DNA of 64,000 nt from Novosphingobium sp. Lineage in GTDB: Bacteria > Pseudomonadota > Alphaproteobacteria > Sphingomonadales > Sphingomonadaceae. The translations under genes and the position numbers were made by a program. Each line of letters starts with the position of its first letter. Position 1 is the stretch's first letter. Positions 7,101 to 56,932 of this stretch are shown in pieces. Location: the NCBI RefSeq assembly GCF_027489515.1, contig NZ_JAIXZS010000098.1, positions 31,406 to 95,405 on the forward strand, written 5' to 3'. The notes below the pieces were generated by a model that was not told the DNA's origin, ran no database searches, and was given only the letters and a program-made list of their open reading frames with translations.

Positions 7101-8113
7101 GCCACCAACTGCCCACCGGCTGCGCGCCCGGCGAGGCGGGCGAACTGGTCAGGACCGATCAAGCGCCCCGCAATTGCAGCTGCCAATGTAGTCAGCGACT
7201 TCACCGGCTCTTCCAGCAAAGGCTTGATGCTGCTGGCTGCGGCCCCGCGCAGCAGCGCCATTGCCATGCCGGCATCTCCGAGCTGGATGGCGCGGCGGGC
7301 CAGATAACGAAGCTGATAGGCACGGGCGCGAGCGATATGGCGGGCTGTGAATTCGGGGGCATAGCGGGTCATCCGCGTGACCACGCCTTCCCAGGTTTCA
7401 TATTGCCGCAGGATCTGCGCGGAGAGACCGCCGCTGCCGATACGGTACTCGGTCAGTACCTGCGCGATGCCCTCGAAGCGTACGCCGCCCGTCAGCGAGA
7501 GGCGGAGCCACATTTCGATGTCTTCGGACTGGCGCAGCGATTCATCGAACCAGCAGGTGCGCGACCGTTCGTGCGGGTGGGCAAACGCGACCGTATCGAG
7601 CGCCGAGCGCCGCAATACGGGCGCGGAACCGTTGCCCACCGGATTGCGGCAGAAGATGTCCTTGGCCGCCACGGCCTTGAGCTTCGGTCGCTGGACGATC
7701 CGCAGCGGCTGGCCAGCAGCGTCGATGAAACGCGAGGGCGCGAAGCTGAGGCCCATCTCGGGCGCGTTATCGAGGTGGATAACGTGGAGCATCAGCTTCT
7801 CGGGGAGCCAGCGATCATCGGAATCGAGCAGCGCGACAAATTCCCCCCGCGCTGCGGCAATTCCGGTGTTGCGCGCCCCGGCAAGCCCGCGGTTCTGCTG
7901 CGAAACGATGGTGATGCGCGGATCGGCAAAGGATCGGCAGATCTCCATCGAGGCATCATGGCCGCCATCATCGACAATGATCAGCTCGAAATCGGTGAAG
8001 GTCTGCGCGAGCACGGAACTGATCGCCTCGGCGACATAGGCTTCGACATTGTAGACAGGCATGACGACCGAGACACGCGGCACATCCCGGGGATGCGAGG
8101 TAGAGATTTCCAT
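7097..8113 (-). CDS. Glycosyltransferase family 2
   Basis: GT2 N-terminus VSVVMPVYNVEAYVAEAISSVLAQTFTDFELIIVDDGG and DSDD. Confidence 0.9.
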   Translation of the reverse strand: MEISTSHPRDVPRVSVVMPVYNVEAYVAEAISSVLAQTFTDFELIIVDDGGHDASMEICRSFADPRITIVSQQNRGLAGARNTGIAAARGEFVALLDSDDRWLPEKLMLHVIHLDNAPEMGLSFAPSRFIDAAGQPLRIVQRPKLKAVAAKDIFCRNPVGNGSAPVLRRSALDTVAFAHPHERSRTCWFDESLRQSEDIEMWLRLSLTGGVRFEGIAQVLTEYRIGSGGLSAQILRQYETWEGVVTRMTRYAPEFTARHIARARAYQLRYLARRAIQLGDAGMAMALLRGAAASSIKPLLEEPVKSLTTLAAAIAGRLIGPDQFARLAGRAAGGQLVA

Positions 8114-8144: not shown

Positions 8145-9125
8145 TCAGGCGAAGATGCGGCGACGCATGGCGCGCGGGATCAGCGGCGCGGCGCAGGCGG
8201 CCACGACCGTGGCGAGCCCGCGCTTCCATTCGGCCAAGAAGCTGCGCGCATCGAGGCGAAGGCCGCGCACGACAAACTTCAACGCACGGAGCGGGCTGGC
8301 GCCGGAGCGGAGCATGCGGCGCGCAAGGTAGCGACAATAGAGCGCCTCGAGCGAAGCGCGGATCGCAGCATCGTCAATGTAGCGATCGATCAGAACGCGC
8401 CAGCCGGCATGCATCTGGGCATGATCCATGGAGAGGCCGTCCGGGCTGAAACGATAGCCGGTCAGCACGCTGTCAATGCCGCACACCTTGCCGCCGCGCG
8501 AAACCAGCCGCGCGACGAACTCCTGGTCTTCGGCGAACTTCAGGCGCTCGTCGAACTTGCCCAGCATGATGAACCAGTCACGGCGCACGACGAGGTTGGA
8601 CGCAGTGCACACGGGGTTCTCGCCCAGTACGTCCACGAGTTGCGGCATCGGCGAAGAGATCGTCGAGACGGTCTGCGCTCCGTCAAGCGTCTCGGCATTC
8701 TGCGCAATGAACGCGATCCGGGCAAAGCTCGCCGCCAGCTCGGGCTCCTCGCGGTGCAGCGCGATATGGTGGCCAAGCTTGTCCCGCGCCCACAGATCGT
8801 CTGCATCAAGAAATGCGACGAGGGGCGCCGTGGCAAGCTCCACGCCGAGGTTGCGGGCCGCTGAAACGCCGCCGTTGCGCTTCGAGACGACCCTTATGCG
8901 CGGATCCTGGGCGGCCAGCTCAAGCAGGATGTCGAGGCTATCGTCGGTCGAGCCATCATCGATTGCGACGATCTCGAACCAGCGAAACGACTGGGCAAGA
9001 GCCGAGTTGATCGTTGCGGCGATGGTCTGGGCCGCATTGTACACCGGCACCACGACCGAGATTTCGGGGCGAATGTCGGCGTAATCGTCCCGCGTGTCAG
9101 CGGGAAAACAGCGAGTCTGGATCAT
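8145..9125 (-). CDS. Glycosyltransferase family 2
   Basis: ISVVVPVYNAAQTIAATINSALAQSF, AFLDADD; ATG at 9125 overlaps the upstream stop, so the longer track ORF (to 9872) is an over-extension. Confidence 0.88.
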   Translation of the reverse strand: MIQTRCFPADTRDDYADIRPEISVVVPVYNAAQTIAATINSALAQSFRWFEIVAIDDGSTDDSLDILLELAAQDPRIRVVSKRNGGVSAARNLGVELATAPLVAFLDADDLWARDKLGHHIALHREEPELAASFARIAFIAQNAETLDGAQTVSTISSPMPQLVDVLGENPVCTASNLVVRRDWFIMLGKFDERLKFAEDQEFVARLVSRGGKVCGIDSVLTGYRFSPDGLSMDHAQMHAGWRVLIDRYIDDAAIRASLEALYCRYLARRMLRSGASPLRALKFVVRGLRLDARSFLAEWKRGLATVVAACAAPLIPRAMRRRIFA

Positions 9126-10429
9126 GAGCGGGACTCCTTGGGGAAGACGTGAATTCGAAACAGGCCGAGCGCGGGAAGCAGGACGCGCGACCCGTTCCAG
9201 AGCGCGCCAAGGGTCTGGCCCGCAATCAGGCCGACGACGGCGAACTTGAGCTCGCCAGCGTGTGCGCCGAGCGATAGCCCCCCGAGCGCCAGCACGCAGG
9301 TCAACGTGCTGTTGGCAGCATCGGTGCCGACCTGGCCCTGTGCGCGCAGCCAGCATCCGGTGATCTGCGCGATCAGCAGCGGGATACCGGCAAGGCAAAG
9401 AAGGGCGATCAGCGGCGCCGCAAAGGCCCAATGCGCACCAAACACCAGCGGAACATAGAACGGTGCCGCCAGTGCCTGCAGCGCGACGATGGGCACGAAT
9501 ACGGCAGCGCCGCCCAGCGCGATACGGCGCAGCATGGCGATGCGGGCAGCCCCGACCTGCGCGGCGCAGAGCATCGGGAAAGCAACAGTTCCGAATGCCG
9601 TCACCAGTGAGCTGACGATCCCGACACCGGCGTTGAACGCAAAATAGTAGGTGCCCAGTGCCGAAGTGCCCAGCAACGCCGCGATGATCAGATTGTCGCC
9701 TTGGGTGCGCAGGGCGCTCATCCCGTCGGCCAGCATGATCGGGCCGGCAAAGCGCAGCATCCGTGCGGCCGGAATCCGTCCGGCCGCAGGATCCGGGCGC
9801 CAAGGTGCGGCGCGACGGGCAAGGACCAGCCAGAGCGGCGCGGTCAGCAGCTTGGGGAGCACGATAGACCACGGGCTCGGCCAGATCAGGAGCAATGCGG
9901 CGGTGAGGATCTGATCCGCGATGGACTGGCTCGCTCCTATCCGGGCGAGGCGGGTTACCAGCCCAGCGCGCATGGCGATGTAGAATTGCACATGGCCGCC
10001 CGCCATGAAGGGATAGACGAGCGTGAGGACGGCGAGCATGGCGGCCGCCGTCGGCCGGTGAAACACGGCGGCGAGGAGCGCCGCGACGAGCATCTGCAAG
10101 ATCATCAGCGCAGCGGCCCAGGCCGTGTAGAACCGCTGGACCGAATTGCAGGTCGCGGCGAGTTCTTCCGGCTGCGCCTGCACGATCTGCTGGCCGGTGC
10201 CGATCCGTTCGAGCACGCGCACCAGTTCGAAAACGGTGAGCGCCAGTGCGGCCTCACCGACAATCGCCGGTGCCAGGCTTCGTGCAATGACAACCGTCGT
10301 CAGCAGCCGGACCAAGCGCGTCGCCACTTCCGCACTGCCATAGCTGCCGAGCCCGCGCGCCAGCTGCGCGAAGTGCGGACCGATGCGGTGCTCGGCTATC
10401 TGGATCAGGCGCAAGGACAAGGGATGCAC
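9122..10429 (-). CDS. Polysaccharide flippase / Wzx-like transporter
   Basis: Multi-helix protein LGSYGSAEVATRLVRLLTTVVIARSLAP, typical of oligosaccharide flippases. Track ORF starts at TTG 10477, inside a sigma-54-like element; GTG at 10429 is an alternative, so the start is uncertain. Confidence 0.8.
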   Translation of the reverse strand: MHPLSLRLIQIAEHRIGPHFAQLARGLGSYGSAEVATRLVRLLTTVVIARSLAPAIVGEAALALTVFELVRVLERIGTGQQIVQAQPEELAATCNSVQRFYTAWAAALMILQMLVAALLAAVFHRPTAAAMLAVLTLVYPFMAGGHVQFYIAMRAGLVTRLARIGASQSIADQILTAALLLIWPSPWSIVLPKLLTAPLWLVLARRAAPWRPDPAAGRIPAARMLRFAGPIMLADGMSALRTQGDNLIIAALLGTSALGTYYFAFNAGVGIVSSLVTAFGTVAFPMLCAAQVGAARIAMLRRIALGGAAVFVPIVALQALAAPFYVPLVFGAHWAFAAPLIALLCLAGIPLLIAQITGCWLRAQGQVGTDAANSTLTCVLALGGLSLGAHAGELKFAVVGLIAGQTLGALWNGSRVLLPALGLFRIHVFPKESRS

Positions 10430-10472: not shown

Positions 10473-10488
10473 TTCAAAAAGCGTGCCA
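10473..10488 (-). promoter_or_regulatory. Near-canonical sigma-54 promoter for the flippase/GT operon
   Basis: Minus strand TGGCACGCTTTTTGAA: perfect -24 TGGCACG and TTG at -12, but GA instead of GC at the last positions. Confidence 0.5.
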
Positions 10489-10542
10489 GAAAGGGGAAAG
10501 CCCGAATTGCACGGTTATCGGATGGTCAGGCCGGGTCGGCCA

Positions 10543-10619
10543 TGTGCATCGTGCAAAGGACATTGCCGGGAGCCGCTGCAAAATGCGCAGAAGCTCGCCC
10601 ACCTTTTGCATTATGCAAC
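10543..10619. promoter_or_regulatory. Cluster of three 15-bp inverted repeats, candidate enhancer (UAS) for a sigma-54 activator
   Basis: TGTGCA-TCG-TGCAAA (10543-10557), GCTGCA-AAA-TGCGCA (10575-10589), TTTGCA-TTA-TGCAAC (10605-10619). Confidence 0.65.
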
Positions 10620-10672
10620 TTCGCAATCTGGTAGGCGACCTTATAGCGCTGAATATTCGAAATAATTCAAAC

Positions 10673-10688
10673 TGGCACGGCTTCTGCT
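10673..10688 (+). promoter_or_regulatory. Sigma-54 (RpoN) promoter upstream of ATP-grasp gene
   Basis: TGGCACGGCTTCTGCT; GG-N10-GC spacing; 48 bp before the ATG. Confidence 0.8.
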
Positions 10689-10735
10689 TTGAACCGGGCG
10701 CGACAACAGCTCGCTCTCCTCAATAAGGTGCCGAC

Positions 10736-11917
10736 ATGGACATTCTGATATTCGCGATCGAAGATGGCCGCTTCGGTCCCGCACGTTTCCCGCTGATGCT
10801 GCATAAGGCCGGCCTCACGGTGGCCGCTCTGTGCCCCAGCGACAATATCCTTGCGCAAAGCGATTTTCTTGGCGCGCATCATGCGCTGCCGCAGTCCCGC
10901 AATATTCGCGTGATTGCCGAGGCCATGGCCGCAGCGATCACTGCATCGCGGCCCAAGCTGGTTATCCCTGGCGACGAGCAGGCCGTAATCCTGCTTCAGG
11001 CCTTTGCCATGGGGCGCTGCTCATCCTTGATCGGGCCAGAGGCCAAGGCGATCATCGCCAGGTCGCTGGGCGCCCCGTGCATGTTTGCCGCCAGTCTCTT
11101 CAAGTCAGATACGATCGCACTCGCCCGCAGCCTCGGCATTCCCGTGCCGAAGAGCGAGACGGTGGTATCGGCCAATGAGGCTTACCGTGCGGGTGAACGC
11201 ATGGGTTACCCGGTTTTTCTCAAGCAGTCCTTCAGCTGGGCCGGCATGGGCGTGGCAAAGTGCGACGATGCAAATGCCTTGCGCGCAGCTTGCAACGCCG
11301 CGCGCCCGCGCGGCATGATGTTGCGCCGCCTCGTTCGCAAGGTGCTCGGCCGCGATTGGTATCCGGCAGTCACGGCGATGGACGTCCAGTCAGGCATCGC
11401 GGGCAGTACCGCGATGTTCAGCGTGCTGGCCTGGCAGGGCCGTCTGATCGGCGGGATCTCCGGGGTGCGGCTGGCCAAGGTCGGGCCCTACGGACCCAGC
11501 ACATCGGTCCGCATCGCTCACAACCAGTCGATGGCCGATGCCGCAGGCAATATGGTGGCAGCGCTCGGGATGACCGGTTTCGTCTCGTTCGATTTCATGA
11601 TTCCGCATGATGGAAGCGAACCGGTTATGATCGAATGCAACCCGCGCCCGGTGCCGGTGCATCATCTGGGCAGCCATGTCGGCGTGGATCTGGCCTCAGC
11701 GTTTGCACGATTGCTGAAGGGCGAGTCCGTGGAAGGCGATCCGGCTTTTGCGGATCGCGAAATCGATGTCGTGCTTTTTCCCCATGCGCTCAATCCTGCG
11801 CTGCATGTAGCGGGCAGCCTGCTCGATATGGCCGATGAAGATCCCGGTCTGGTACGGCATGTGGCCGGCCATTATTCGGCGAAAGGGACTGATCAGCCCA
11901 CACGCCTCGCTGCGTGA
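10736..11917 (+). CDS. ATP-grasp domain protein in EPS locus
   Basis: ATP-grasp features (GYPVFLKQSFSWAGMGVAKC, FVSFDFMIPHDGSEPVMIECNPRP). Confidence 0.85.
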   Translation: MDILIFAIEDGRFGPARFPLMLHKAGLTVAALCPSDNILAQSDFLGAHHALPQSRNIRVIAEAMAAAITASRPKLVIPGDEQAVILLQAFAMGRCSSLIGPEAKAIIARSLGAPCMFAASLFKSDTIALARSLGIPVPKSETVVSANEAYRAGERMGYPVFLKQSFSWAGMGVAKCDDANALRAACNAARPRGMMLRRLVRKVLGRDWYPAVTAMDVQSGIAGSTAMFSVLAWQGRLIGGISGVRLAKVGPYGPSTSVRIAHNQSMADAAGNMVAALGMTGFVSFDFMIPHDGSEPVMIECNPRPVPVHHLGSHVGVDLASAFARLLKGESVEGDPAFADREIDVVLFPHALNPALHVAGSLLDMADEDPGLVRHVAGHYSAKGTDQPTRLAA

Positions 11918-11992
11918 TCTCGTCCTGATTATGTACCATTAAGGTTCATAAATCGGGTTCCAGATCGCCTCCCACCGCAAGATCAGGTTTCC

Positions 11993-12024
11993 CGCCCACT
12001 CAGCCCCGCATGGCTGGGTGGGCG
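11993..12024 (+). terminator. Hairpin terminator-like structure after the ATP-grasp gene
   Basis: CGCCCACTCAGCC-CCGCAT-GGCTGGGTGGGCG, 13-bp arms with one T/G wobble; no strong T-run. Confidence 0.5.
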
Positions 12025-12091
12025 TTGTGCTGCCTAGTCGGCTAGCAGCGTACAACTCATACTTTCTAGATATTTAGCCTTCCTTTTTTGC

Positions 12092-12137
12092 AATGCAAAG
12101 TGCGAACCGCAAGGGTCGCGGCTTTGCAAAGTGGCAT
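12092..12137. promoter_or_regulatory. Candidate UAS pair of the 15-bp inverted repeat
   Basis: AATGCA-AAG-TGCGAA (12092-12106) and a weaker TTTGCA-AAG-TGGCAT (12123-12137). Confidence 0.5.
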
Positions 12138-12200
12138 GCAATTCGGGCACGCTGCGATCCAGCTGCGCCTAACGCATTGATACTCCAATAAAATCCAAAT

Positions 12201-12216
12201 TGGCACAGTGCCTGCG
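12201..12216 (+). promoter_or_regulatory. Sigma-54 promoter upstream of the WecG/sugar transferase fusion gene
   Basis: TGGCACAGTGCCTGCG; GG-N10-GC spacing; overlaps the track ORF start (12208), supporting the ATG at 12250. Confidence 0.78.
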
Positions 12217-12249
12217 TTGAACCCTGCAACACAATGCAGGATTTTCCAG

Positions 12250-13698
12250 ATGCTCAAGCGATTTGATTCCGAGACCCAGTTCGATCAGGCCGATGCCCGT
12301 TTCACGTCCCTCTCACGACTTCGGCTGCCGCACGATACACTCCGCCAGGCCCGGCGCACCCGGTTGTTCGATCTTGAGCTGATGGTGTCGACGCGTCTCC
12401 ATGTGGCCGAAGAGCTTGTCGCCATGGCGCGCTCCGGTGAATGCGCCACGGTCCAGTTCATCAACGCACACTGCATCAATGTCGCGCAGACCAACCCCAC
12501 CTACCGCGAGGTGCTCGATCGCGCCGACTTCCTCCTTCCCGATGGTAGCGGCATGGCGATCGCCGCGCGTCTGGCTGGACGCGAACTGGGCGAGAACCTC
12601 AACGGCACCGATCTCTTCCCCGAACTCTGCCGCTGCGCTGCCGAACGCGGCCAATCGATCTTTCTGCTTGGCGGCAAGGCAGGCATCGCCGCCGCGGCGG
12701 CGCAGGCCATGCAGGCGCGCTACCCTGCGCTCAATGTTGCCGGAACCCGCCACGGATACTGGAGCGCAAGCGAGGAAGACGCCGTGGTGGCTGAAATCAA
12801 TGCGTCCGGTGCGGCCATCGTGCTGGTCGGGCTTGGCGTGCCGACCCAGGAAATCTGGATCGACCGCATCCGCGATCGCCTCATGGCACGCGTGGTGATG
12901 GGCGTGGGCGGGTTGTTTGACTACTATTCCGGCGCAATTCCGCGTGCGCCGCTCGCGCTGCGCAAGATGGGCTGCGAATGGGCCTGGCGTCTGGCGCAGG
13001 AACCGCGCCGCCTGTTTGTGCGCTATGTGATCGGCAATCCCCGCTTTCTTGCCGCTGCGGCATTCCATGCCTGGCAGGCGCGTGATCTGTCCGGCCGGGG
13101 CTCGCTTGCCGTCAAGCACGGCATCGACCGCATGACGGCGGCTTTGGCGCTGCTGGTGCTGGCCCCCCTGTTCTTCCTGATCGGCGCAGCAATCCGCCTT
13201 GAAGATGGCGGGCCGGTGTTCTTTCGCCAGACCCGCATCGGTGTGGGTGGCCAGCCGTTCCGGATGTGGAAATTCCGTTCGATGGTGATCGATGCCGAGA
13301 CCCGGCTTGCGGCCATCCGCGACAAATCCGAGCGCGACAGCACCTGCTTCAAGATGAAGCGCGACCCGCGGGTCACGCGGATCGGTGCGATCTTGCGCCG
13401 GCTCTCGCTTGACGAGCTTCCGCAGCTGATCAACATCGTCGCAGGCGAGATGTCGGTTGTCGGGCCGCGCCCTGCATTGCCCAACGAGGTCGTCGGCTAT
13501 CAACCCGAGGCCCGCGCGCGCCTGCTCGGCAAACCGGGGCTCACGTGCACCTGGCAAGTCAGCGGGCGAGCAGAAGTGCCGTTCGAACAGCAGGTCGAAC
13601 TGGACGTGAGCTACCTGCGCTCGCGGTCGCTGGTGGCGGATCTGGCGCTGATCCTGCGCACCGTTCCGGCCGTGCTGACCGCGCGCGGCGCCTATTGA
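12250..13698 (+). CDS. Fusion of WecG/TagA/CpsF glycosyltransferase and undecaprenyl-phosphate sugar phosphotransferase (WcaJ/PglC-like)
   Basis: N-terminal INAHCINVAQTNPTYREVLDRADFLLPDGSGMA, LVGLGVPTQEIWIDR (WecG/TagA); C-terminal FRMWKFRSMVIDAE, SLDELPQLINIVAGEMSVVGPRPALP (bacterial sugar transferase). Confidence 0.9.
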   Translation: MLKRFDSETQFDQADARFTSLSRLRLPHDTLRQARRTRLFDLELMVSTRLHVAEELVAMARSGECATVQFINAHCINVAQTNPTYREVLDRADFLLPDGSGMAIAARLAGRELGENLNGTDLFPELCRCAAERGQSIFLLGGKAGIAAAAAQAMQARYPALNVAGTRHGYWSASEEDAVVAEINASGAAIVLVGLGVPTQEIWIDRIRDRLMARVVMGVGGLFDYYSGAIPRAPLALRKMGCEWAWRLAQEPRRLFVRYVIGNPRFLAAAAFHAWQARDLSGRGSLAVKHGIDRMTAALALLVLAPLFFLIGAAIRLEDGGPVFFRQTRIGVGGQPFRMWKFRSMVIDAETRLAAIRDKSERDSTCFKMKRDPRVTRIGAILRRLSLDELPQLINIVAGEMSVVGPRPALPNEVVGYQPEARARLLGKPGLTCTWQVSGRAEVPFEQQVELDVSYLRSRSLVADLALILRTVPAVLTARGAY

Positions 13699-14018
13699 GG
13701 AACCAGCGGAGCGGCGATCGCCACAACGGCGGCGATCGTCGCTTCGACGCAATCAAGAAAGCGAGCGCGAGCGTCGGTCGACGACAGATCGCTGTCCACG
13801 TGATGCATGACCGCAGCTGCACCGAAGTTGCCGCACAGCCCCTTGAGGGAATGACGTGCGCGCCGAATTGCTTCGTCATCTTGCGCAGCCACGGCGTCGA
13901 GCAGACGCGTGCTCCAATCGCGCAGGTCCGCTGACGTTGCCTCGCACAGGGGGACTACAACGTTCGATGGCAATGCCTCGAACTGGCTGAGGGTCAGCTC
14001 TTGATCAATCAGCTCCAT
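13692..14018 (-). CDS. Hpt (histidine phosphotransfer) domain protein
   Basis: Hpt motif AIRRARHSLKGLCGNFGA in a ~108-aa protein. Confidence 0.85.
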   Translation of the reverse strand: MELIDQELTLSQFEALPSNVVVPLCEATSADLRDWSTRLLDAVAAQDDEAIRRARHSLKGLCGNFGAAAVMHHVDSDLSSTDARARFLDCVEATIAAVVAIAAPLVPQ

Positions 14019-14087
14019 GCATGCCTTGCCCTGTTATGAATTCGACGAAGGGGTCGTCTTTCCATCGCTGGCAAACCGACCCGCTGT

Positions 14088-16001
14088 CTAGTGCGCGACG
14101 TCGTCTTCCACCGGTATGCCCAGCACCCGGCTGATTGCGCGATAGAGATCGTCGATGACGATGGGCTTTGCCACACTGTCGTTGGCTCCGGCCGCCATCA
14201 TCGGTTCCAGCTCCTCAGGCCGCGTGAACGCGGTGAGCGCTATGATCGGAAGTTGGGCCAGTTCGCCAGGCAGTGCCCTGATGCGGCGCGTAGCCTCGGG
14301 GCCGTCCATCACCGGCATGGCCATGTCCATCAGCACAAGATCATAGGCTTCGCCCGATCCGACGGCGTCAAGCGCCTGCTGGCCGTCTTCCACGACATGG
14401 ACTTCGCAGCGCAGCTTGCGCAAGCAGCCTTCCACGACGATGCGGTTCGTCGCCAGATCCTCCGCTACAAGCACCCGTGGGACCCGGCCGTCCGCCCCCC
14501 TGAGGGAACGAACGACCGGGTTTGCGACCCGCTTGGGCACGGGGATCCGAACAACGGGAATCTCGAACCAGAAACAGCTTCCTCGCGCGGCATCGTCGAC
14601 GCCAAGGCGTCCGCCCATGACCTCGATGATGCGCTGGCAGATGGCGAGGCCAAGGCCGGCACCGCCGGGCTCGCTGCCGAGCAGATTGAGCTGGCTGAAT
14701 TCGCTGAACAGTTCAGTGCGCCGATGGGCAGGAATGCCGATGCCGGTATCGATGACTTCCGTGCGCAGCCAGCCGCTAGGCAAGACACGTGTCTTCAGCA
14801 ACACGCCGCCTTCGCTCGTATACTTGATGGCGTTGCTAAGCATGTTGTCGATCAGCTGACGCAGCCGCACGCTGTCGGCTTCGACCCAGGTGGGCGTGTC
14901 CGGCGCGAGCACGATATCGAGCGAGAGGCTCTTGTCATCCGCGAGGTGCCGCCAGAAATCGGCCCCGTCGGTGAGGACGTCGACGAGATTGGTCGGCCCG
15001 GGAGTGAGCGCCAGCTTGCCGGCTTCGGCGCGGGCGAGATCGATGATGTCGTTGAGTAGGACGCGCAGCTGATCCCCGCTCGAGCGCACCAGCGCCAGCG
15101 TCCGCCGCTGGCCTGCGGTGAGCGTGCTCTCGTCGAACAGGCTCAGCATTCCGATCACACCGTTGAGCGGGGTGCGGATATCGTGGCTCATCATCGCGAG
15201 AAACCGCGATTTTGCATCGTTGGCGAGGTCTGCCTGCTCGCGCGCGAGCAGCAATTCCTTGTTGAGTCGCTCAAGATCCGCGAGGCGCTGCAGTTCCCGT
15301 GCGCGCAGGGCAGCAGCCTCGTTGTCGGCGCGAACCTGGCGGGTGATGTCCTGCACCGTCACGAAGATCATCGCCGGCCGGCACTGGCTGTCGACCTGGA
15401 ACTGCGCCATGATGCGAAGCGAACGAACGCCTTCGCCGCCTTTTTCGGCGGGGCAGCGGACTTCGATGCGATATTCGCGCAGCGCTTCTTCGCAGGGGCC
15501 CGGCGATCCTTGGCAGGGCTGCCCATCGTATTTGATGCAGTGGTCGCGCTCAAGCCGCGCCAGCAATTCGCCGTGCATCCAGTCCAGCAGGCGCCGGCGG
15601 TCTTCGCGCAGAAGGCCGCGTACGAGCGAGCGATAGGTCTTGACTGCGGAGCCCGGCTCAAGCCCGATCATGACCTGGACCTGCGGCGAGAGTTCAAGCT
15701 GCTGGTGCTTGATATCCCACAGCATGGTGCCAAAGCCTGCCACCCGCTGCGCGTCCAGCAACTGGCGGGTTCGCCGCTCGAGGCTGGTGCTCAGCTTGTC
15801 CTGCCGCGCGGTCAGCTCGGTATTGGCTGCAGCGAGGATACGGCTTTTCTGTTCGAGCAAGTGCTCTGCAGCAGCCCGCGCCGCTTCCGCCCGCGCCAGC
15901 CGGCGTTCAAGCAAGGCAATCTGCGCCGCGGGATCGACCGGCTCAATCGCGGCCGCTACCTCGTGAGGCATCGCAAAACTCGAAAGGGGCGTTCCGGGCA
16001 T
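14088..16001 (-). CDS. Hybrid sensor histidine kinase/response regulator, apparently cytoplasmic (H-NOX-associated type)
   Basis: HisKA box SHDIRTPLNGVIGML, HATPase GGAGLGLAICQRI, C-terminal REC LVLMDMAMPVMDG; N-terminal coiled coil, no obvious TM segments. Confidence 0.9.
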   Translation of the reverse strand: MPGTPLSSFAMPHEVAAAIEPVDPAAQIALLERRLARAEAARAAAEHLLEQKSRILAAANTELTARQDKLSTSLERRTRQLLDAQRVAGFGTMLWDIKHQQLELSPQVQVMIGLEPGSAVKTYRSLVRGLLREDRRRLLDWMHGELLARLERDHCIKYDGQPCQGSPGPCEEALREYRIEVRCPAEKGGEGVRSLRIMAQFQVDSQCRPAMIFVTVQDITRQVRADNEAAALRARELQRLADLERLNKELLLAREQADLANDAKSRFLAMMSHDIRTPLNGVIGMLSLFDESTLTAGQRRTLALVRSSGDQLRVLLNDIIDLARAEAGKLALTPGPTNLVDVLTDGADFWRHLADDKSLSLDIVLAPDTPTWVEADSVRLRQLIDNMLSNAIKYTSEGGVLLKTRVLPSGWLRTEVIDTGIGIPAHRRTELFSEFSQLNLLGSEPGGAGLGLAICQRIIEVMGGRLGVDDAARGSCFWFEIPVVRIPVPKRVANPVVRSLRGADGRVPRVLVAEDLATNRIVVEGCLRKLRCEVHVVEDGQQALDAVGSGEAYDLVLMDMAMPVMDGPEATRRIRALPGELAQLPIIALTAFTRPEELEPMMAAGANDSVAKPIVIDDLYRAISRVLGIPVEDDVAH

Positions 16002-16010
16002 CTCTGATCC

Positions 16011-16565
16011 CTACCCGGACAGGACGCGCGCAGGCTTGCGCACAAGGAAGCGGGCGGCATGCGGCCCGGGCGAGCCGGGATCGCGGATGACCTCGAGATC
16101 ATCGCCGTAATAGTCAATGTAACCGCGCACCAGGCCATGGGCGACATCCGCAAGCGGCCGATGCGACCCGTAGCTGACGGTCAGTTCCTCGCCGTCGATC
16201 ACCACCACGATGCTCGGGGTGCGCGCATCAGGGTAAAGCTTGGTGACTTCGCGGTGATGCTGCCCGTCGACATCGCGCAGGAACGTCACGGCGTCGGTAT
16301 AGCCCTCGAACATCTCGGGATAGAGTTCCATGAACCGGCTTGCCAGCCAGTAGCCATAGCTGTCGGCCAGCACAGCAATCGGCTGACGCGAGATATCGGC
16401 GAGCGCGCCCATCATCGCGAGGGCGTCCGTATGGGGGTAGTTGCCGACTGTCGTGTAGACGCCGTTGCCGGGAAGGCCGGAGCGGACGATCACGGCATCT
16501 GCCACGGCGGGCGAGAAGGCTTCCTCGATCCATCGGACTAGTTCGGCAATGATAACACCCTTCAT
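16011..16565 (-). CDS. H-NOX domain heme/NO sensor protein
   Basis: Starts MKGVI; YxSxR heme-propionate motif present (YGSHR); candidate proximal His in DGQHHREVTKLYPDARTPSIVVV; adjacent to kinase and Hpt genes. Confidence 0.85.
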   Translation of the reverse strand: MKGVIIAELVRWIEEAFSPAVADAVIVRSGLPGNGVYTTVGNYPHTDALAMMGALADISRQPIAVLADSYGYWLASRFMELYPEMFEGYTDAVTFLRDVDGQHHREVTKLYPDARTPSIVVVIDGEELTVSYGSHRPLADVAHGLVRGYIDYYGDDLEVIRDPGSPGPHAARFLVRKPARVLSG

Positions 16566-16613
16566 CCCGACTTCCCGATTCCACTGGCCACGGCTTGCAG
16601 CTCAAACTGGTTA

Positions 16614-16629
16614 AGCAAATCACATGCCA
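16614..16629 (-). promoter_or_regulatory. Sigma-54 promoter for the H-NOX/kinase/Hpt operon
   Basis: Minus strand TGGCATGTGATTTGCT; GG-N10-GC spacing; ~50 bp before the H-NOX ATG. Confidence 0.78.
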
Positions 16630-16682
16630 GTTGTGCGCTGAGGCTAATACCCGCGCATCTTGGCAATTGCCGGCGGATATTC

Positions 16683-16738
16683 TTTGCATTGTGCAAAAGC
16701 AGGCTTTGCAGAATGCAACGATCTTCGCATTCTGCATA
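16683..16738. promoter_or_regulatory. Triple 15-bp inverted repeat, candidate UAS
   Basis: TTTGCA-TTG-TGCAAA (16683), TTTGCA-GAA-TGCAAC (16705), TTCGCA-TTC-TGCATA (16724). Confidence 0.7.
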
Positions 16739-18031
16739 TCATGACGCAGCCTCGCCGGGCGCCCCATTGCTGCGCTGAAGGCGCAGGCCGATGCCAAGCG
16801 CCAGCAGGGCCGGCCACGTGATGTAGACCAGGACTTCGAGATTTTCGCCGAAACTGTAGAGCCAGTAGGTAAGGCTCATCGTGAGCGCCAGACGCCCATA
16901 CCGGCCTCCGGCTGCTGCCAACACGCAGCCGATGAGCGATGAAACCATCGGAACTCCAAGGGCGATAACCCCCAGCAGGCCCTTGACGTAGAGCAGGCCG
17001 TACCAGCTGTGGTGGCTTCCGATCGGCATGTATTCGACGAGGTGCGGTCCGCGTTCGACAATCCCGTGGCCGAACCAGTAGGCTTCGTGCTGCCAGCGCT
17101 CGACCGCGATGCGGCCTAGCGTTGCGCGAACGCGCGACGAGGAGGCGCGCGCGCCGTTGAAGCTGCTCGAGGCTTGCTCGCTGAGCGCTGCAAGCTGTGG
17201 CAGCAGCCAACTGGCCACCAGCGTAACCGGTGCGAAGGCAAACCAGGTGTGCGCCTTGCCGAGCTTGCCCGCGAGCAGGGCGAGGGGGATGATGATCGCC
17301 AGCGCGACCAGTGCCATGCGCGATTGCGAGAGGAGGGCGATCAGCACACTCGCCGAATAGCCCGTCCAGCGCCATGGCGCCGACCGCTCTTCGCGCGCGA
17401 TGAGAAAGTGGATCACCGCGACCATCCCGGCGGCCGGCGACCAAGGAGCGAAGAACTGCCAGCGCGGGGTGCCGATCTCGGGGTCGACCGTGTAGAGTAC
17501 CACGGCGAAGAATTCATCGCTGGCACTGCCCAAGACCTTCAGGGGGGAGACCCACAGGATCGAGGGCAGGTGGAGGAACGGCGCAGCGAGGAACAGCGGC
17601 ATCAGGATCATGGTCTGGCGGCCCAATCGGCAGACTGCGCGCGCCAACACGCTGAGCCGGATCGGCAAGACATAGCCCGCGAAGGGGAACAGCCCGAGCA
17701 AGGCCCAGCCCTTTGCCCAGCCGACTGCCGACTTGACTGTCTGGGCGCTGCCCAGGCCGAACTGGGCATGCGCGACCAGCAGGATCAGGAGCATTGCGGC
17801 CATGCCGAGCAGCCAGGCCCAGACCTGGATCGGCAAGGGGCCGGGCCGCTCGCCTTCGGGCAAGGCAGGGGCGAGATAGCAGTTGCGCGCCGCCATGATA
17901 GCAAGCGCCCAGCCCAGCAGCGGGCCGGCCATGTAGAGCCCGCCGACCAGCCAGAGCCAATAGCTCCCGCCGATCGTGAAGGCGATCAGGCGTTCTGCAG
18001 CATTCGGCGCAGGATCGGTTGGCGTAGCCAT
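16739..18031 (-). CDS. O-antigen ligase/polymerase-like (Wzy-type) membrane protein
   Basis: Polytopic protein with periplasmic-loop sequence HGIVERGPHLVEYMPIGSHHSWYGLLYVKGLLG; in operon with Wza- and Wzz-like genes. Confidence 0.8.
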   Translation of the reverse strand: MATPTDPAPNAAERLIAFTIGGSYWLWLVGGLYMAGPLLGWALAIMAARNCYLAPALPEGERPGPLPIQVWAWLLGMAAMLLILLVAHAQFGLGSAQTVKSAVGWAKGWALLGLFPFAGYVLPIRLSVLARAVCRLGRQTMILMPLFLAAPFLHLPSILWVSPLKVLGSASDEFFAVVLYTVDPEIGTPRWQFFAPWSPAAGMVAVIHFLIAREERSAPWRWTGYSASVLIALLSQSRMALVALAIIIPLALLAGKLGKAHTWFAFAPVTLVASWLLPQLAALSEQASSSFNGARASSSRVRATLGRIAVERWQHEAYWFGHGIVERGPHLVEYMPIGSHHSWYGLLYVKGLLGVIALGVPMVSSLIGCVLAAAGGRYGRLALTMSLTYWLYSFGENLEVLVYITWPALLALGIGLRLQRSNGAPGEAAS

Positions 18032-19401
18032 AGGAGTCCAAAGGCAAGGAGGGTCATCAAGGTCGCCGCGAGCGCGCCGGCCAGAGCAATGATCGCCGAA
18101 GGGCTCGATGGCGCCTTGGGCAGCGAAGGCGCGGCAAGCACCTGCACCAGCGGGTAGGACGCGAAGGGGTCCTGCTTGTTGGTATCGAGCCGGGCAAGCG
18201 CGGAGGAGAACACCGCCTCGGTCACGCGCTGGTCGCGCTGGAGATCTGCGAGCTGCTGGGCCTGCAGGATCAACTGCGGGGCATCGGCCCGGGCGCGCGC
18301 CAGATCGCCGTGGAGTTCGGCGAGCGCGCTGCGCGTACCTGCCGCCTGCGCATCGCTGGCACTCATCGCCTGCATCAGAGTCGAGCGGCCGTCACCCAGC
18401 TGCAGATCGGTCTGGCGCAGCAGGGCCTGTTCGGAAAGGCCGGTCAGCTCCTGCCCGCGATGCACCAGCGCAGCGCGCAGCTGCGCGCTCTCCGCATCGG
18501 CCTGAGCCCGTGCGCTGTGCTGGGGGCCGAGGGTTCCCGCCTTGAGCTGGGCATCGGCATTGGCGGCAGCATACCGCTGCGCAAGTTCCGCAAAGATCGG
18601 ATCGCCCTTGAGCCGCATGATCACGTTCGCACCGCCGGGGCTGGCACCGAGCGTTCCCGAAAGGCGCGAGGCCGTGCCGCCCTGCATGCGCATCTGTACG
18701 CGCAGATCGCGTTCCTTGTCGCGGATCGTGTCAACCGAGGCGATCCGGCTGTTGAACTGCTCGAGCGTGGCAAGGCCATGGCTGGCCTGGAACTCGATCA
18801 GCTTGCGCTGCGCCGCCTTCACCTTGTCGGAAAGCTCGCTCAGATGCGCAAGATCGCTTTCCTCGCGCTTCTTGGCCTCATCCGCACGCAGAGCCGTGAG
18901 CTCCTCGACGAAGGCCTGCTGCAAGGCCATGGCGCGGCGATGCGCACCTTCGGCACTATGCGCGGTGATGCTGATCGCGATGAGGTTTGTCTGGTCCACG
19001 AGCTTTATGGTCGGTGTCGGGAACGTGTCCTCGCTCTCGTGCGCGATGCGCGCTGCGGCCCGCAGGGTGACATCGGCCGTCAGCAGCTGCTTGTAGTTCT
19101 CGGTCGGGCTGAGCGTGGAACTGGCGAAGGCGGAATTGCTCGTGCCTTGTGCCTGACCGATCGATTCGACGTTGATCGAGCTGCCGACACCCGATCCGGG
19201 CAGGATCAGGCTGAACTGGCTCGTGTAGCTGCGCGGCACGGCGATCAGATAGAGGGCGGTCAGGATCCAGATGGAGGCGATCACCGGTCCGATGATCACA
19301 AGATAGCGCCGGTAGCGGCCTACCGAAGGCAAGCCGTTGCGAACGAAACCCCAGATCCGGACGAGCCGCCGGTCGGGCTGAATTTGCTGTGCGAAGTTCA
19401 T
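17986..19401 (-). CDS. Polysaccharide chain-length determinant (Wzz/GumC-like) without visible BY-kinase domain
   Basis: N- and C-terminal TM segments with long coiled coil; C-terminal proline-rich ALPKAPSSPSAI followed by TM. Confidence 0.85.
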   Translation of the reverse strand: MNFAQQIQPDRRLVRIWGFVRNGLPSVGRYRRYLVIIGPVIASIWILTALYLIAVPRSYTSQFSLILPGSGVGSSINVESIGQAQGTSNSAFASSTLSPTENYKQLLTADVTLRAAARIAHESEDTFPTPTIKLVDQTNLIAISITAHSAEGAHRRAMALQQAFVEELTALRADEAKKREESDLAHLSELSDKVKAAQRKLIEFQASHGLATLEQFNSRIASVDTIRDKERDLRVQMRMQGGTASRLSGTLGASPGGANVIMRLKGDPIFAELAQRYAAANADAQLKAGTLGPQHSARAQADAESAQLRAALVHRGQELTGLSEQALLRQTDLQLGDGRSTLMQAMSASDAQAAGTRSALAELHGDLARARADAPQLILQAQQLADLQRDQRVTEAVFSSALARLDTNKQDPFASYPLVQVLAAPSLPKAPSSPSAIIALAGALAATLMTLLAFGLLWLRQPILRRMLQNA

Positions 19402-20645
19402 GGCTTGAGATTCTTTGCAAGAACCGCCGGCCCGAGCAGACTGCCCACGACGCCCACGGCATCGACAAACGTCATCGCCGTGCTGTCGTAGCAGGCGATC
19501 GCATCGCCGGGCATCAGGTAGGGATCGACCTCGTCGCGATCGGCATCGCGGACGAGGGCCTCGACCTTCCGGGCAATGACCACCGAATGGCCGTTGACCG
19601 GATTGCGCGAGATCAGCACCGCGCTGCGCCCCGCGTTGAGCGCCGAGCCGCCGACGCAGTTGGCCGCGATCAGGCCCTGCAGAAAGCGCGTGCCATAAGG
19701 CAGGCTCGTCGCATCCCGGCCGATGGCGGAAGCTGCATTGCTGGCCGCCGGGCGCGAAAGGTTCGACATGTAGACGCGGATGCCCGGTGCGGTGACGGGG
19801 CTGGGGCGGACCAGCTTCTGCTGGAAGCAGCCCTTGGACGGAATGATGATGCGGTCGCCGCGGGCAAGCTGCGGATCGACAGGCAGGCCGCCGGTGCCGT
19901 CGCTGCCTTCGACACCGCCCAGCACCGGGCTGAGATCGATCCGGGCATAGCGATCACCGCGCACGAGGTAGACGGCATCGAGCGCTGCATCTGGGCGCAG
20001 TCCGCCCGCCGCCCGGATGGCGGTTGCCAGCGATCGGCCATTGTTGAAATCGCCCAGAGCCGGGTTGGCAACTGTCGTTGCGCGCGCGTCGGTGGCGCGT
20101 TCCCCCGCGACGATCACGCCCGGCTCGAACACCGCACCTTCGACCGACACCGAAACCCCGGCGCGCTCGGTCGGCACAAGCCGGAGATTGTTGGCGATGT
20201 CGCGGATCAGGCCGGCTGCAACGAGCCTGCTGCGCACCTCTTCAGACACGGCGCCGCTGCTGCGCCCGGCCGCAGCGATTGCCCCGATTCCGTTGATCGT
20301 CAGGCTGCCGTTCGCCGCAATTACATAGTCGTGCGAAAGCACATCCTTGTCGCCGCTGACATCGAGCCGCAGCCGGTCACCCGGCCCCATCACATCGGGG
20401 AACGCGGCCAGCGCCTCGGCCGGTTCCGCCGCCAGTGCGCCGAGGGCGGCGGGCAGCTGCGGGGTCAGGCAGCGCTCTGCACGGGCAGTCTCTTCGAGGC
20501 GCTGGGTGGGTTGATACTGGGCACTGGCCACATTGCGGGGCGTCGGCATGGTCGCGCAGCCGCTGGTCAGGGCGAGCACCATCATCGCGACGATGCGTGG
20601 CGAGCCCTTCAATCGGGTCAGTGTGGGGCGAAGCATCTGGGACAT
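19398..20645 (-). CDS. Polysaccharide export lipoprotein (Wza-like)
   Basis: Lipobox LTSGC; GPGDRLRLDVSGDKDVLSHDYVIAANGSLTI polysaccharide export motif. Start 20645 chosen because the longer track ORF crosses the sigma-54 promoter. Confidence 0.85.
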   Translation of the reverse strand: MSQMLRPTLTRLKGSPRIVAMMVLALTSGCATMPTPRNVASAQYQPTQRLEETARAERCLTPQLPAALGALAAEPAEALAAFPDVMGPGDRLRLDVSGDKDVLSHDYVIAANGSLTINGIGAIAAAGRSSGAVSEEVRSRLVAAGLIRDIANNLRLVPTERAGVSVSVEGAVFEPGVIVAGERATDARATTVANPALGDFNNGRSLATAIRAAGGLRPDAALDAVYLVRGDRYARIDLSPVLGGVEGSDGTGGLPVDPQLARGDRIIIPSKGCFQQKLVRPSPVTAPGIRVYMSNLSRPAASNAASAIGRDATSLPYGTRFLQGLIAANCVGGSALNAGRSAVLISRNPVNGHSVVIARKVEALVRDADRDEVDPYLMPGDAIACYDSTAMTFVDAVGVVGSLLGPAVLAKNLKP

Positions 20646-20672
20646 GGGAATCTCCGGGGTTTGCCCCAGCAT

Positions 20673-20688
20673 GGCAATCCCTGTGCCA
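20673..20688 (-). promoter_or_regulatory. Sigma-54 promoter for the wza-wzz-wzy operon
   Basis: Minus strand TGGCACAGGGATTGCC; GG-N10-GC spacing; ~28 bp before the ATG. Confidence 0.8.
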
Positions 20689-20761
20689 GTTCCCGAAATC
20701 TGATGGAATTGCGCTGTTTCGGCTGAATCCGGGCCGATTCCCGTTTTGCAATCGCGCCTTC

Positions 20762-20822
20762 TTCGCATTTTGCAAAGGCCAGGATTGGCATTTTGCAAAC
20801 ATCAACATTCGCGAAATGCGAA
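20762..20822. promoter_or_regulatory. Triple 15-bp inverted repeat shared by divergent sigma-54 promoters, candidate UAS
   Basis: TTCGCA-TTT-TGCAAA (20762), TTGGCA-TTT-TGCAAA (20785), TTCGCG-AAA-TGCGAA (20808); exactly 23 bp apart. Confidence 0.75.
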
Positions 20823-20872
20823 CGAACTGCTAAGGAAAGGTCCTTATGCTGCCGTTCATGCCTTTCGCGATT

Positions 20873-20888
20873 TGGCACGCATCCTGCT
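20873..20888 (+). promoter_or_regulatory. Sigma-54 promoter upstream of the NtrC-family regulator
   Basis: TGGCACGCATCCTGCT; GG-N10-GC spacing; 38 bp before the ATG at 20926. Confidence 0.8.
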
Positions 20889-20925: not shown

Positions 20926-22349
<1,424 letters not shown>

Positions 22350-22353
<4 letters not shown>

Positions 22354-25300
22354 ACCTCGCGGCGAGCGGACCCTCGATGAACAGAGCGCAAGGCGCGCGC
22401 GATGGGTTCATTCTCGTGCTGTCGCTGTTCGAGGCGCGGTTCGTCTATCCCAATGTAGACGCGCTCACCGTCATGCTCGTGCCGTCGGTGATGCTGGCAG
22501 CTGTGTTCGCGCTCGATTGGCGGAGGCCATGGACGCAGATCCTGCGCATGCTGCTTGCTTCGCTATTCGGCCTCATGCTTGGCGGCATTCCGCCGGCAAA
22601 CGCGGCTGTTGCTGCTCTCCTCGCCGGTTTGCAGGCCGTGATGGGCGGCGCCGCACTCAAGAAGCTCGCGCCGGGTGGTCTTGATCTGACCATGCCAGAT
22701 GCGGTGCTGAAGCTTGGCATTGTCGCCACGGTGATCGCGCCGCTGTTCAGTCTGATATTTACCGTGTTCATGCTTTCCGTGCAGCAACCCGGAGGCGCGT
22801 TCGCTGCCATGTCCGAGTTGTCCAGCCTCTCGGGCCTTCAAGAAACCAACGCATTCCGATGGGTCCTGCCCAATGCCATCGGCATTGTCATTGCTACGCC
22901 GCTCTTCCTCGGGTTGCTGGAAGACCGCTCGTTTCACCTGTCCAGCCTGCTCTCGCTCCGGCGGGCGGCAGGGTTTGTGTCAGTCGCCGCGCTCACGGCA
23001 CTCGTCTTTCTGAGCGGTGGGCACACCTACATCTTCTTCGTGTGCCCCGCGCTGGTCTGGGTCAGCGTCTCATTGGGAATCCGCGATACCGCCGCAGCGC
23101 ACTTGCTCTCCATCCTGATCGCCACGGTGGCGGTTGCCTTTGGCAACGGCCCGGCCGACGTGCTGGCGATAGCGCCCGAGGGCCGGTATCTTTTCATCGA
23201 GACGGCGTATCTTTGCTGCTACGGCTGCCTCCTGCCGATCGCGGCATCGATGGAGGCACGCCGCCGTCTCGAGCAGGAGCTTGCGCAGACGCTGGCCTTC
23301 ACGTCCGAGATCCTCCACAACATGCAGGAAGTCGTGTTTCGCACCGATGTCCGGGGGCGCTGGACGTTCCTCAATCCGGCATGGGAGGCGATGACCGGCT
23401 TCACCGTTGCGGAAACGCTTGAAGGATCGGGCCCGGCCGTGCTCGATCTTGGCGATATCGTCGAGACGCTGGTGCAGTCCGAGCGGTCCCGCGGGGCCGA
23501 ACCCGACGAACTGCGCACCCATCGCAGCTTTGCACGGCGCGACGGAGAGATCCGCGAAGCGGACATCAGCATCCGCCGGATCACCACGCCGGACGGACGG
23601 TTCGAAGGCATCGCGGGCAGTATTCGCGATGTTTCCGACCAACGGCGCTATGTTGTCGCGCTGGAGGCCAGCGAGCAGCGTTTCCGGCAGCTGTGCGACA
23701 CCTCGCCCATCGGCATCCTGCGCTGTGATCGCCATGGCCTGATCACCTACGTCAACCAGCGCATCGAACTGCTCGTCATGGCGCCGGCCTCGGCGATTGT
23801 TGGCAAACTCTGGTCCGAAGTGCTCGGCCTCGCCAACACCCAGGCAATCGATCAGATCAATCACTCGCTGATGACCCCGGGTGCGGTCTTCGAGAACGAG
23901 ATCAACTACATCGACAGGTCCGGGCTCAAGCGCTGGCTGACCTTCACCGCAACCGGTGAGTTCGAGAACGGCTCGCGGCTCAGCGGCTATATCGCCGCGG
24001 TCACCGATGTGACCCAGCGCAAGGCGAGCGACATAGAACTGGCAAGCCGCACCCGTGAGCTCAGGCTGGTTACCGAGAACATCAATGACATGGTGTTCCG
24101 GATCGGGCTCGACGGTCATTGCCTCTACGTCACGCCTTCGGTGCGTCAGGTCCTCGGCTACGATCCGAACGCGCTTCTTGGCGTGCCGATGCTGATCCGC
24201 ATCCACCCCGATGATATCGGGGCTGTCCGCACCGGGTTCGACCAGCTCCTCCAGGGCAAGGTCGACAATCTCAGCGTGGCCTACCGGGCGCTCCCCGCGA
24301 AGACCGAAACCGAATACCGCTGGCTTGAGGCCAATTGCCGGCTGCTACGGACCCGCAAGGGCGCCCCGCACGAGATTGTCGCTTCAGTGCGCGATATCAC
24401 CGCGCGCAAGCTGCTCGAAACCGATCTCATCGAAGCGCGCCACCGTGCCGAACAGGCCACTGCCGCGAAGAGCACATTCCTTGCCAACCTCAGTCACGAG
24501 ATCCGCACGCCGATGAATGGCGTGATCGGCCTCTCGGAACTGCTTCTTGATCATCCGCTCGACGATACCAGCCGAAACTATGTCCGGCTGATTTCCGAAT
24601 CCGGCGCGACGATGATGAAGCTGCTCAACGACATTCTCGATATCGCCAAGATCGATGCAGGGCGGCTGCAGCTGTTGGCTGAGCCTTTCAATCTGCACGA
24701 TTGCCTTGCCGATTGCATGAGCCTGATGACCGCCAGCGCGGTTGGCAAGCGGCTGGCGCTCGATCTCGATATCGCCCCCGATGTGCCGCGGTCGATTGTG
24801 GGCGACAGCCTGCGCCTGCGCCAGATCCTTGCAAACCTCATCGGCAACGCCGTCAAGTTCACCGAGACGGGGCAGATCCGGCTTTCCGCCCGAACTGAAG
24901 GGGACCAATTGGTGATCGCGGTGGACGATACCGGGATCGGCATCTCGCAAGCTGCGCAGGCGAAGGTCTTCGAAGACTTCGGTCAAGGTGAGGAAAGCAT
25001 TGTCGCTTCCTACGGCGGTACGGGTCTGGGCTTGCCGATCTCGCGCCGGATTGCCGAAGCCATGGGCGGAACCTTGACCCTCAGGAGCGAGCTTGGTGTC
25101 GGTACTTCCCTGGTACTGCGGATCAAACTGACCCTTCCGGACGCCGCGACCGTTTCCACCACGCTACCTGCCCCGGCGCCATCCTTGCCCGAGCTGCCAT
25201 CGATGCGCATTCTTGTTGCCGAAGATGGCCGCACCAACCAGCTGATCCTTACGGCCATGCTGGAAAAGCTGGGCCATCGTGTAACATTGGCGCAGACAGG

Positions 25301-25601
25301 CGAAGAAGCGATCGCGATGGTTCATGAGGCCATCGCCGAGACCCAGCCATTTGGAGTGGTTCTCATGGATATCCAGATGCCGGGAATGGACGGCATGACC
25401 GCAACCAGGTTGCTGCGGGAAAGCGGCATTACCGCCGGAATGCTTCCGATCATTGCGGTGACCGCGAACGGCTATCAGGAAAGCATTGACCAGTGCCTTG
25501 CGGCCGGGATGCAAGGGCACCTCGTGAAGCCTGTGCGAAGCGCGGAGATCGCGGCCGAACTTGCGAGGGTCGCCAATCAGGACGCAAGCTGCTTCCATTA
25601 A
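22350..25601 (+). CDS. Membrane hybrid histidine kinase: MASE1-like sensor, multiple PAS, HisKA, HATPase, REC
   Basis: N-terminal multi-TM region, PAS repeats, SHEIRTPMNGVIGLSELL, GGTGLGLPISRRIAEAMGG, VVLMDIQMPGMDG; ATG overlaps regulator stop. Confidence 0.9.
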
Positions 25602-56917: not shown

Positions 56918-56932
56918 TTCGCAAAGTGCGAA
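56918..56932. promoter_or_regulatory. Isolated perfect copy of the 15-bp inverted repeat TTCGCA-AAG-TGCGAA
   Basis: Perfect hexamer arms, same 3-bp spacer as the EPS copies; ~120 bp upstream of the polyproline gene; no sigma-54 promoter found nearby. Confidence 0.4.

Follow-up and report, generated by a model that had tools for sequence, protein, structure and literature searches.

Probable nitric oxide-linked control of an exopolysaccharide locus by a LuxO-like sigma-54 activator in Novosphingobium sp.

What switches on the exopolysaccharide (EPS) genes of a sphingomonad, and which signal reaches the switch? The question is raised by a 64,000-nucleotide stretch of Novosphingobium sp. DNA (assembly GCF_027489515.1, contig NZ_JAIXZS010000098.1, positions 31,406 to 95,405; hereafter the window), where EPS machinery and an apparently complete control circuit look to share one gene cluster. 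An earlier sequence-only reading proposed that a single two-component pair, including an NtrC-type activator, governs the whole locus through sigma-54 promoters, that of the activator gene among them. The sigma-54 regulon is supported by conserved sites, by the enhancer-binding protein (EBP) encoded in the locus and by the single copy of rpoN in the genome (one Sigma54_DBD match, 220.8 bits). The single two-component pair is too simple, and an H-NOX-linked phosphorelay of the LuxO type is most likely to stand in its place. Taken as a whole, the locus is probably a self-contained, nitric oxide (NO)-linked sigma-54 switch for one exopolysaccharide. That earlier reading had missed the enhancer palindromes as well as the genes for the NO sensor and Hpt.

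Promoters and enhancer palindromes

The five 16-mers previously reported as sigma-54 promoters were all recovered, spread over four intergenic regions of the EPS locus. These sites share a TGGCAY-N5-TTGCW layout with fixed spacing (GG-N10-GC), while a sixth, listed earlier as a near-match, has GA at the -12 element (TTGAW in orthologues) and is probably real, the TTGAA/TTGAT variant being kept before orthologous wzx and wza genes. The distance to the start codon, given as 30-50 bp, came to approximately 28-49 bp when measured at five sites from the inner end of the site to the likely start. The pattern TGGCAY-N5-YWGC occurs six times in the window, compared to 1.64 +/- 1.19 times in shuffled sequence (none of 100 shuffles reached six), and five of the six matches are the reported sites, all of them intergenic. 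Genome-wide, however, the scan that had been suggested as a check returned 31 matches compared to 52 for the reversed control pattern. Because the sigma-54 pattern alone is not enriched across the genome, it was not counted as evidence on its own.

Palindromes at the promoters are stronger evidence than the 16-mers. Copies of TTYGCA-N3-TGCRAA, a candidate upstream activating sequence (UAS), are present in each of the four promoter-bearing intergenic regions, and the window contains nine matches with at most one mismatch where 0.52 would be expected. The 4.29-Mb genome holds 25 such palindromes, eight of them within this 10 kb, compared to eight genome-wide for the reversed control; among the genomic matches checked, a palindrome adjoins a good sigma-54 site only at the EPS locus. 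According to the available text of the sources, the Vibrio LuxO enhancer is TTGCAWWWTGCAA (PMC10162802; PMC10328515), and V. cholerae LuxO sites from chromatin immunoprecipitation sequencing include ttgcaaaatgcaa and ttgcattttgcaa (PMC10328515). The predicted palindromes in the window and in orthologous loci agree with TTGCAWWWTGCAA.

The reality of the predicted sigma-54 sites is decided by comparison across orthologous loci. In 54 loci with an orthologous EBP (1128 kb), TGGCAY-N5-TTGMW occurs 111 times (8.2 expected) and exact TTGCA-N3-TGCAA 59 times (2.8 expected), whereas 12 EPS loci without the EBP (229 kb) contain one sigma-54 match (1.2 expected) and no LuxO-type UAS (0.2 expected). Most relatives carry the H-NOX gene immediately before the EBP gene, often with overlapping ends, and wza-wzz-wzy are transcribed away from this pair; sigma-54 sites face in either direction, and palindromes lie between them. 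The same promoter-palindrome design recurs at the opposite end, where the divergent wecG and wzx genes adjoin the kinase homologue.

The activator and its phosphorelay

The receiver (REC), AAA+ and Fis-type HTH domains expected of an NtrC-type activator are present in the EBP; its subtype, however, is LuxO/SypG-like and not NtrC-like. Its NCBIfam scores are highest for LuxO (503 bits), followed by NtrC (380 bits), then the PEP-CTERM response regulator (362 bits). Among solved structures, its best relatives are LuxO chains (PDB 5ep0, from V. angustum according to the available text of PMC10162802); the REC-AAA+ linker region aligns with 5ep0, the linker glycine not being assignable. The EBP is one of seven clear sigma-54 activators in the genome, and a quick tree with one support measure separates it from the other six, with LuxO on its side of the split (98%). 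In the same tree it forms, with the EBPs of orthologous EPS loci, a clade of its own outside Vibrio LuxO, and the EBPs of Halomonadaceae are a single branch (100%) nested within those of sphingomonads.

In place of one kinase partner, the locus encodes an H-NOX protein, a hybrid kinase, a separate Hpt protein and a second hybrid kinase, the components of a predicted phosphorelay. The H-NOX protein has an HNOB domain, the axial His and the YxSxR motif, both residue features being kept in 23 of 23 aligned homologues, and the solved structures closest to it are those of stand-alone haem NO-binding proteins from bacteria. Of 200 genomes from the family, 24 have an EBP orthologue, and all 24 contain H-NOX (33 of the 200 overall); each of the 19 genomes with the Wzy-like gene has the EBP. 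The Hpt gene emerged from a genome-wide search for Hpt domains, the only other match being a 791-aa frame taken as CheA, and its product has the conserved H-x-L-K-G motif (RARHSLKGLCGNFGA).

A homologue of the H-NOX-associated kinase is present in nearly every complete orthologous locus. On the branch that includes the window, Hpt is a separate gene directly after the kinase gene, and a small frame with the same motif occurs in seven loci (L084, L133, L151, L152, L157, L213 and L214). The remaining genomes have a kinase homologue with an Hpt-like domain fused at its C-terminus, and this fusion argues for joint action. The HATPase domain is recognisable in 5 of 17 fused homologues and otherwise often missing or degenerate; in L139, L141, L142, L144, L147 and L148 it is fully lost, with DHp, REC and Hpt kept. 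The fused homologue therefore resembles a phosphotransfer hub (DHp-REC-Hpt) that a neighbouring kinase probably serves.

From the genes, motifs, conservation and co-occurrence observed directly, we infer the following mechanism. The activator would bind the TTYGCA-N3-TGCRAA palindromes and drive sigma-54 holoenzyme at six promoters, namely those of wzx with the glycosyltransferase genes, the ATP-grasp gene, the wecG/sugar-transferase gene, wza-wzz-wzy, the H-NOX/kinase/Hpt operon and its own operon. Autoregulation of the EBP would act through its own sigma-54 site, its sign, positive or negative, not being readable from sequence. The H-NOX protein would modulate the adjacent hybrid kinase, from which phosphate would pass through Hpt to the receiver Asp of the activator, and the second hybrid kinase would provide an additional input. 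By analogy with biofilm control in the squid symbiont Vibrio fischeri, NO would be the ligand, and NO-bound H-NOX would lower kinase output and EPS.

Alternative explanations

There are several potential explanations other than an NO-linked LuxO-type relay. Chance matches to the 16-mer in a GC-rich genome would be consistent with the unenriched genome-wide scan, but the sites cluster between genes together with palindromes and are conserved in orthologous loci far above the chance level found in activator-less loci, so that this explanation is scarcely credible. Only a little less improbable is the earlier comparison to PrsK/PrsR control of XrtA/PEP-CTERM EPS loci. In common with that type, EPS genes are combined with an NtrC-like regulator and sigma-54, an EpsH-type exosortase gene lies elsewhere in the genome (G000:C35:7979-8674), and the PEP-CTERM protein gene of one relative carries a UAS and a sigma-54 site. 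However, the EBP reaches 361.6 bits against the PrsR model (TIGR02915), whose cut-off is 502.6, while LuxO is both its best family and its best structural match, and the Wza and sugar-transferase proteins score far under the PEP-CTERM equivalog cut-offs. In agreement with the earlier remark that no exosortase is visible, none was recognised in the parts of the window examined.

Two other explanations accept the regulon and differ in its input. It is possible, in line with the two-component pair of the earlier reading, that the activator is switched only by the adjacent MASE1/PAS hybrid kinase, whose gene overlaps the end of the EBP gene and whose counterparts of similar type adjoin the H-NOX kinase homologue in many relatives; the H-NOX, kinase and Hpt genes would then be mere targets acting elsewhere, for example on another response regulator. 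This is rendered quite unlikely by the presence of H-NOX in every EBP genome, by its position directly before the EBP in most relatives, and by an Hpt fused to or adjoining the H-NOX kinase, the element needed for relay to a receiver-bearing EBP, with no further Hpt found in the genome besides CheA. Alternatively, the relay may operate as described with H-NOX sensing oxygen or redox state rather than NO, which would couple EPS to aeration. Some H-NOX proteins are known to bind oxygen, and the hosts are mostly aerobic, but the haem NO-binding proteins that are its best solved relatives and the response of the V. fischeri analogue to NO make this version unlikely, if less so than control by the second kinase alone.

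It is also important to note the points that weigh against the NO-linked switch itself. The UAS before wecG is degenerate in the window (two mismatches). The EBP falls below the 800-bit cut-off of the LuxO equivalog (NF041946) at 503 bits, yet this is its best family by far, and its AAA+ loop has the sequence GSFTGA, compared to GAFTGA in most relatives. We infer from residues and gene neighbourhood that the H-NOX protein binds haem, is selective for NO and pairs with the kinase, and the second kinase may be the dominant one. The ATPase domain of the kinase homologue is lost or degraded in many Erythrobacter-type genomes, so that H-NOX need not act through the kinase there. Finally, the compared genomes are often kin, and their counts are therefore not independent.

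Gene content, distribution and relation to known systems

From left to right, the locus comprises genes for one GT4 and two GT2 glycosyltransferases and Wzx (minus strand), the ATP-grasp enzyme and the WecG/sugar-phosphate transferase fusion (plus), the Hpt, hybrid kinase and H-NOX operon (minus), the Wzy-, Wzz- and Wza-like operon (minus), and the EBP and MASE1/PAS hybrid kinase (plus; Table 1). The ATP-grasp gene, with its own sigma-54 site, is inserted between wzx and wecG in the closest relatives only, these two genes being directly divergent elsewhere, and it seems to have joined the regulon recently. A HAMP-GGDEF-EAL gene lies on the minus strand about 1 kb past the second kinase gene (26567-28897). 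A second H-NOX gene with a higher Pfam score (G000:C101:41211-41687; L134:6218-6691) is located near a GGDEF/EAL gene and is a probable separate module linking NO and cyclic di-GMP. The other UAS-like genomic sites checked were rejected as regulon members, none having a good sigma-54 site suitably placed: the one of C52 lies inside a coding gene, and the perfect palindrome at 56918-56932 of the window (TTCGCAAAGTGCGAA) precedes a gene that resembles those of Gly-rich secreted proteins and lacks a sigma-54 site. Another UAS, near a gene like that of the flagellar sigma factor (fliA) in G069, has its sigma-54 site on the wrong side and is probably under other control.

Table 1. Genes, predicted sigma-54 promoters and candidate enhancers of the EPS locus (window coordinates).
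Feature	Coordinates	Strand	Remarks
Glycosyltransferase (GT4-type)	6066..7100	-	Pfam PF13692/PF00534; kept in orthologous loci
Glycosyltransferase family 2	7097..8113	-	Pfam PF00535
Glycosyltransferase family 2	8145..9122 (start approximate)	-	Pfam PF00535
Wzx-type flippase	9122..10420	-	PF13440; predicted start TTG 10420 or GTG 10429
Predicted sigma-54 promoter, wzx operon	10473..10488	-	TGGCACGCTTTTTGAA; near-match, variant -12 TTGAA
Candidate UAS between wzx and ATP-grasp promoters	10543..10619		10543 TGTGCATCGTGCAAA, 10605 TTTGCATTATGCAAC
Predicted sigma-54 promoter, ATP-grasp gene	10673..10688	+	TGGCACGGCTTCTGCT
ATP-grasp enzyme, lineage-specific	10736..11917	+	PF02786 and others; among fetched loci only in closest relatives L151, L152
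Degenerate candidate UAS before wecG promoter	12085..12137		12092 AATGCAAAGTGCGAA (2 mismatches) and neighbours
Predicted sigma-54 promoter, wecG/sugar-transferase gene	12201..12216	+	TGGCACAGTGCCTGCG; wecG orthologues preceded by sites in many genomes
WecG/TagA and polyprenyl sugar-phosphate transferase fusion	12250..13698	+	PF03808 and PF02397
Stand-alone Hpt phosphotransfer protein, 108 aa	13692..14018	-	PF01627, 27.0 bits (cut-off 24.6); motif RARHSLKGLCGNFGA
H-NOX-associated hybrid histidine kinase (HisKA-HATPase-REC)	14088..16001	-	Pfam
H-NOX haem NO-binding protein	16011..16565	-	PF07700, E=2.9e-27, 96 bits
Predicted sigma-54 promoter, H-NOX/hybrid kinase/Hpt operon	16614..16629	-	TGGCATGTGATTTGCT; identically placed in Novosphingobium sediminis
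Three candidate UAS before H-NOX promoter	16683..16738		16683, 16705, 16724; spacing 19-22 bp
Wzy-like polymerase	16739..18031	-	No Pfam match; assigned from position; conserved
Wzz-like chain-length protein	17986..19401	-	Weak EpsF match
Wza-like export protein	19398..20645	-	PF02563
Predicted sigma-54 promoter, wza-wzz-wzy	20673..20688	-	TGGCACAGGGATTGCC; kept in orthologues
Three candidate UAS between wza and EBP promoters	20762..20822		20762, 20785, 20808; spacing 23 bp
Predicted sigma-54 promoter, EBP/kinase operon (autoregulation)	20873..20888	+	TGGCACGCATCCTGCT; EBP or H-NOX-EBP operon promoter conserved
LuxO/SypG-like sigma-54 EBP (REC-AAA+-HTH)	20926..22353	+	Pfam; NCBIfam LuxO best; PDB LuxO 5ep0 best
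Second hybrid kinase (MASE1-like, PAS, HisKA, HATPase, REC)	22326..25601	+	Pfam; overlaps EBP gene end

In a scan of named genomes, the locus was found in Novosphingobium, Erythrobacter, Altericroceibacterium, Croceicoccus, Sphingorhabdus and others, as well as in the Gammaproteobacteria Halomonas, Salinicola and Kushneria, where L163, L173, L178, L179, L182, L184, L196 and L206 carry the whole locus. The genome closest to that of the window is Novosphingobium sediminis (EBP 94% and Wzy 90% identical). EPS loci with a homologous Wzy, mostly from Rhodobacteraceae and a few others, contained no orthologous EBP or H-NOX within the fetched flanks and lack both motifs. The nesting of halomonad EBPs among those of sphingomonads suggests transfer, and the Halomonadaceae likely acquired the locus horizontally. 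A few additional palindromes with sigma-54 sites occur in relatives, ahead of genes for an adhesin-like protein with cadherin/Ig repeats (L126) and a DUF11-repeat protein (L127), and a perfect palindrome with a sigma-54 site accompanies a PEP-CTERM protein gene (L197:20152-20946), which links the regulon to exosortase substrates; these extra targets are plausibly matrix proteins.

According to the available text of the sources, NO-bound HnoX of V. fischeri restrains HahK, and HahK in turn passes its signal via SypF and LuxU on to SypG, which acts at the syp locus (PMC12369376; PMC10162802). The order predicted here from sequence, H-NOX and kinase to Hpt to LuxO-like EBP, is similar, as is the predicted activation of sigma-54 promoters of an EPS locus through palindromic UAS, ascribed in the same text to SypG (PMC12369376, PMC10162802). 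The likeness is a functional analogy, of which homology of the EPS genes to syp forms no part. The carriers, by contrast, are Sphingomonadales and Halomonadaceae, and a single locus holds every part. A sigma-54 site and UAS also precede the sensor operon, whereas in V. fischeri hnoX and hahK form an operon of their own, and -10/-35 elements were assigned to its start as mapped by 5' rapid amplification of cDNA ends. With the Vibrio LuxU-LuxO system of the qrr promoters the locus shares a REC-AAA+-HTH protein closest to LuxO, the TTGCA-N3-TGCAA enhancer and a dedicated small Hpt, but its targets are, as far as seen, EPS genes and not Qrr small RNAs, and its EBP sits in its own clade under the LuxO cut-off. 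At PEP-CTERM EPS loci under PrsK/PrsR, sigma-54 likewise works with an NtrC-type activator, but the EBP subfamily and kinase set differ, and no exosortase was recognised in the locus studied here. In the open literature, with subscription papers mostly outside coverage, no work was found on H-NOX, sigma-54 and EPS together, related topics being limited to Vibrio or to unrelated work.

A bolder version is tentative and, on balance, unlikely: that this is a mobile, fully locus-encoded NO-to-EPS switch on a LuxO-type relay outside Vibrio, which moved from sphingomonads to Halomonadaceae, and whose Erythrobacter-type kinase homologue is a kinase-dead DHp-REC-Hpt hub, with H-NOX, whose gene immediately precedes that of the EBP, perhaps acting directly on the activator or hub and not on a cognate kinase. 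If true, such direct action would be new for H-NOX. Control of biofilm by NO through LuxO/SypG-type relays is already known, having been worked out in Vibrio, and the present findings suggest that the same logic extends to EPS across a broad range of aquatic Alphaproteobacteria and of halophilic Gammaproteobacteria. The locus supplies an enhancer sequence rule and a natural control in the homologous EPS loci without the activator. Since sensor, relay, activator, enhancers and output fit into approximately 20 kb, it would offer a compact, testable system for H-NOX control of a sigma-54 regulon, and a way to influence EPS production in sphingomonads and Halomonas.

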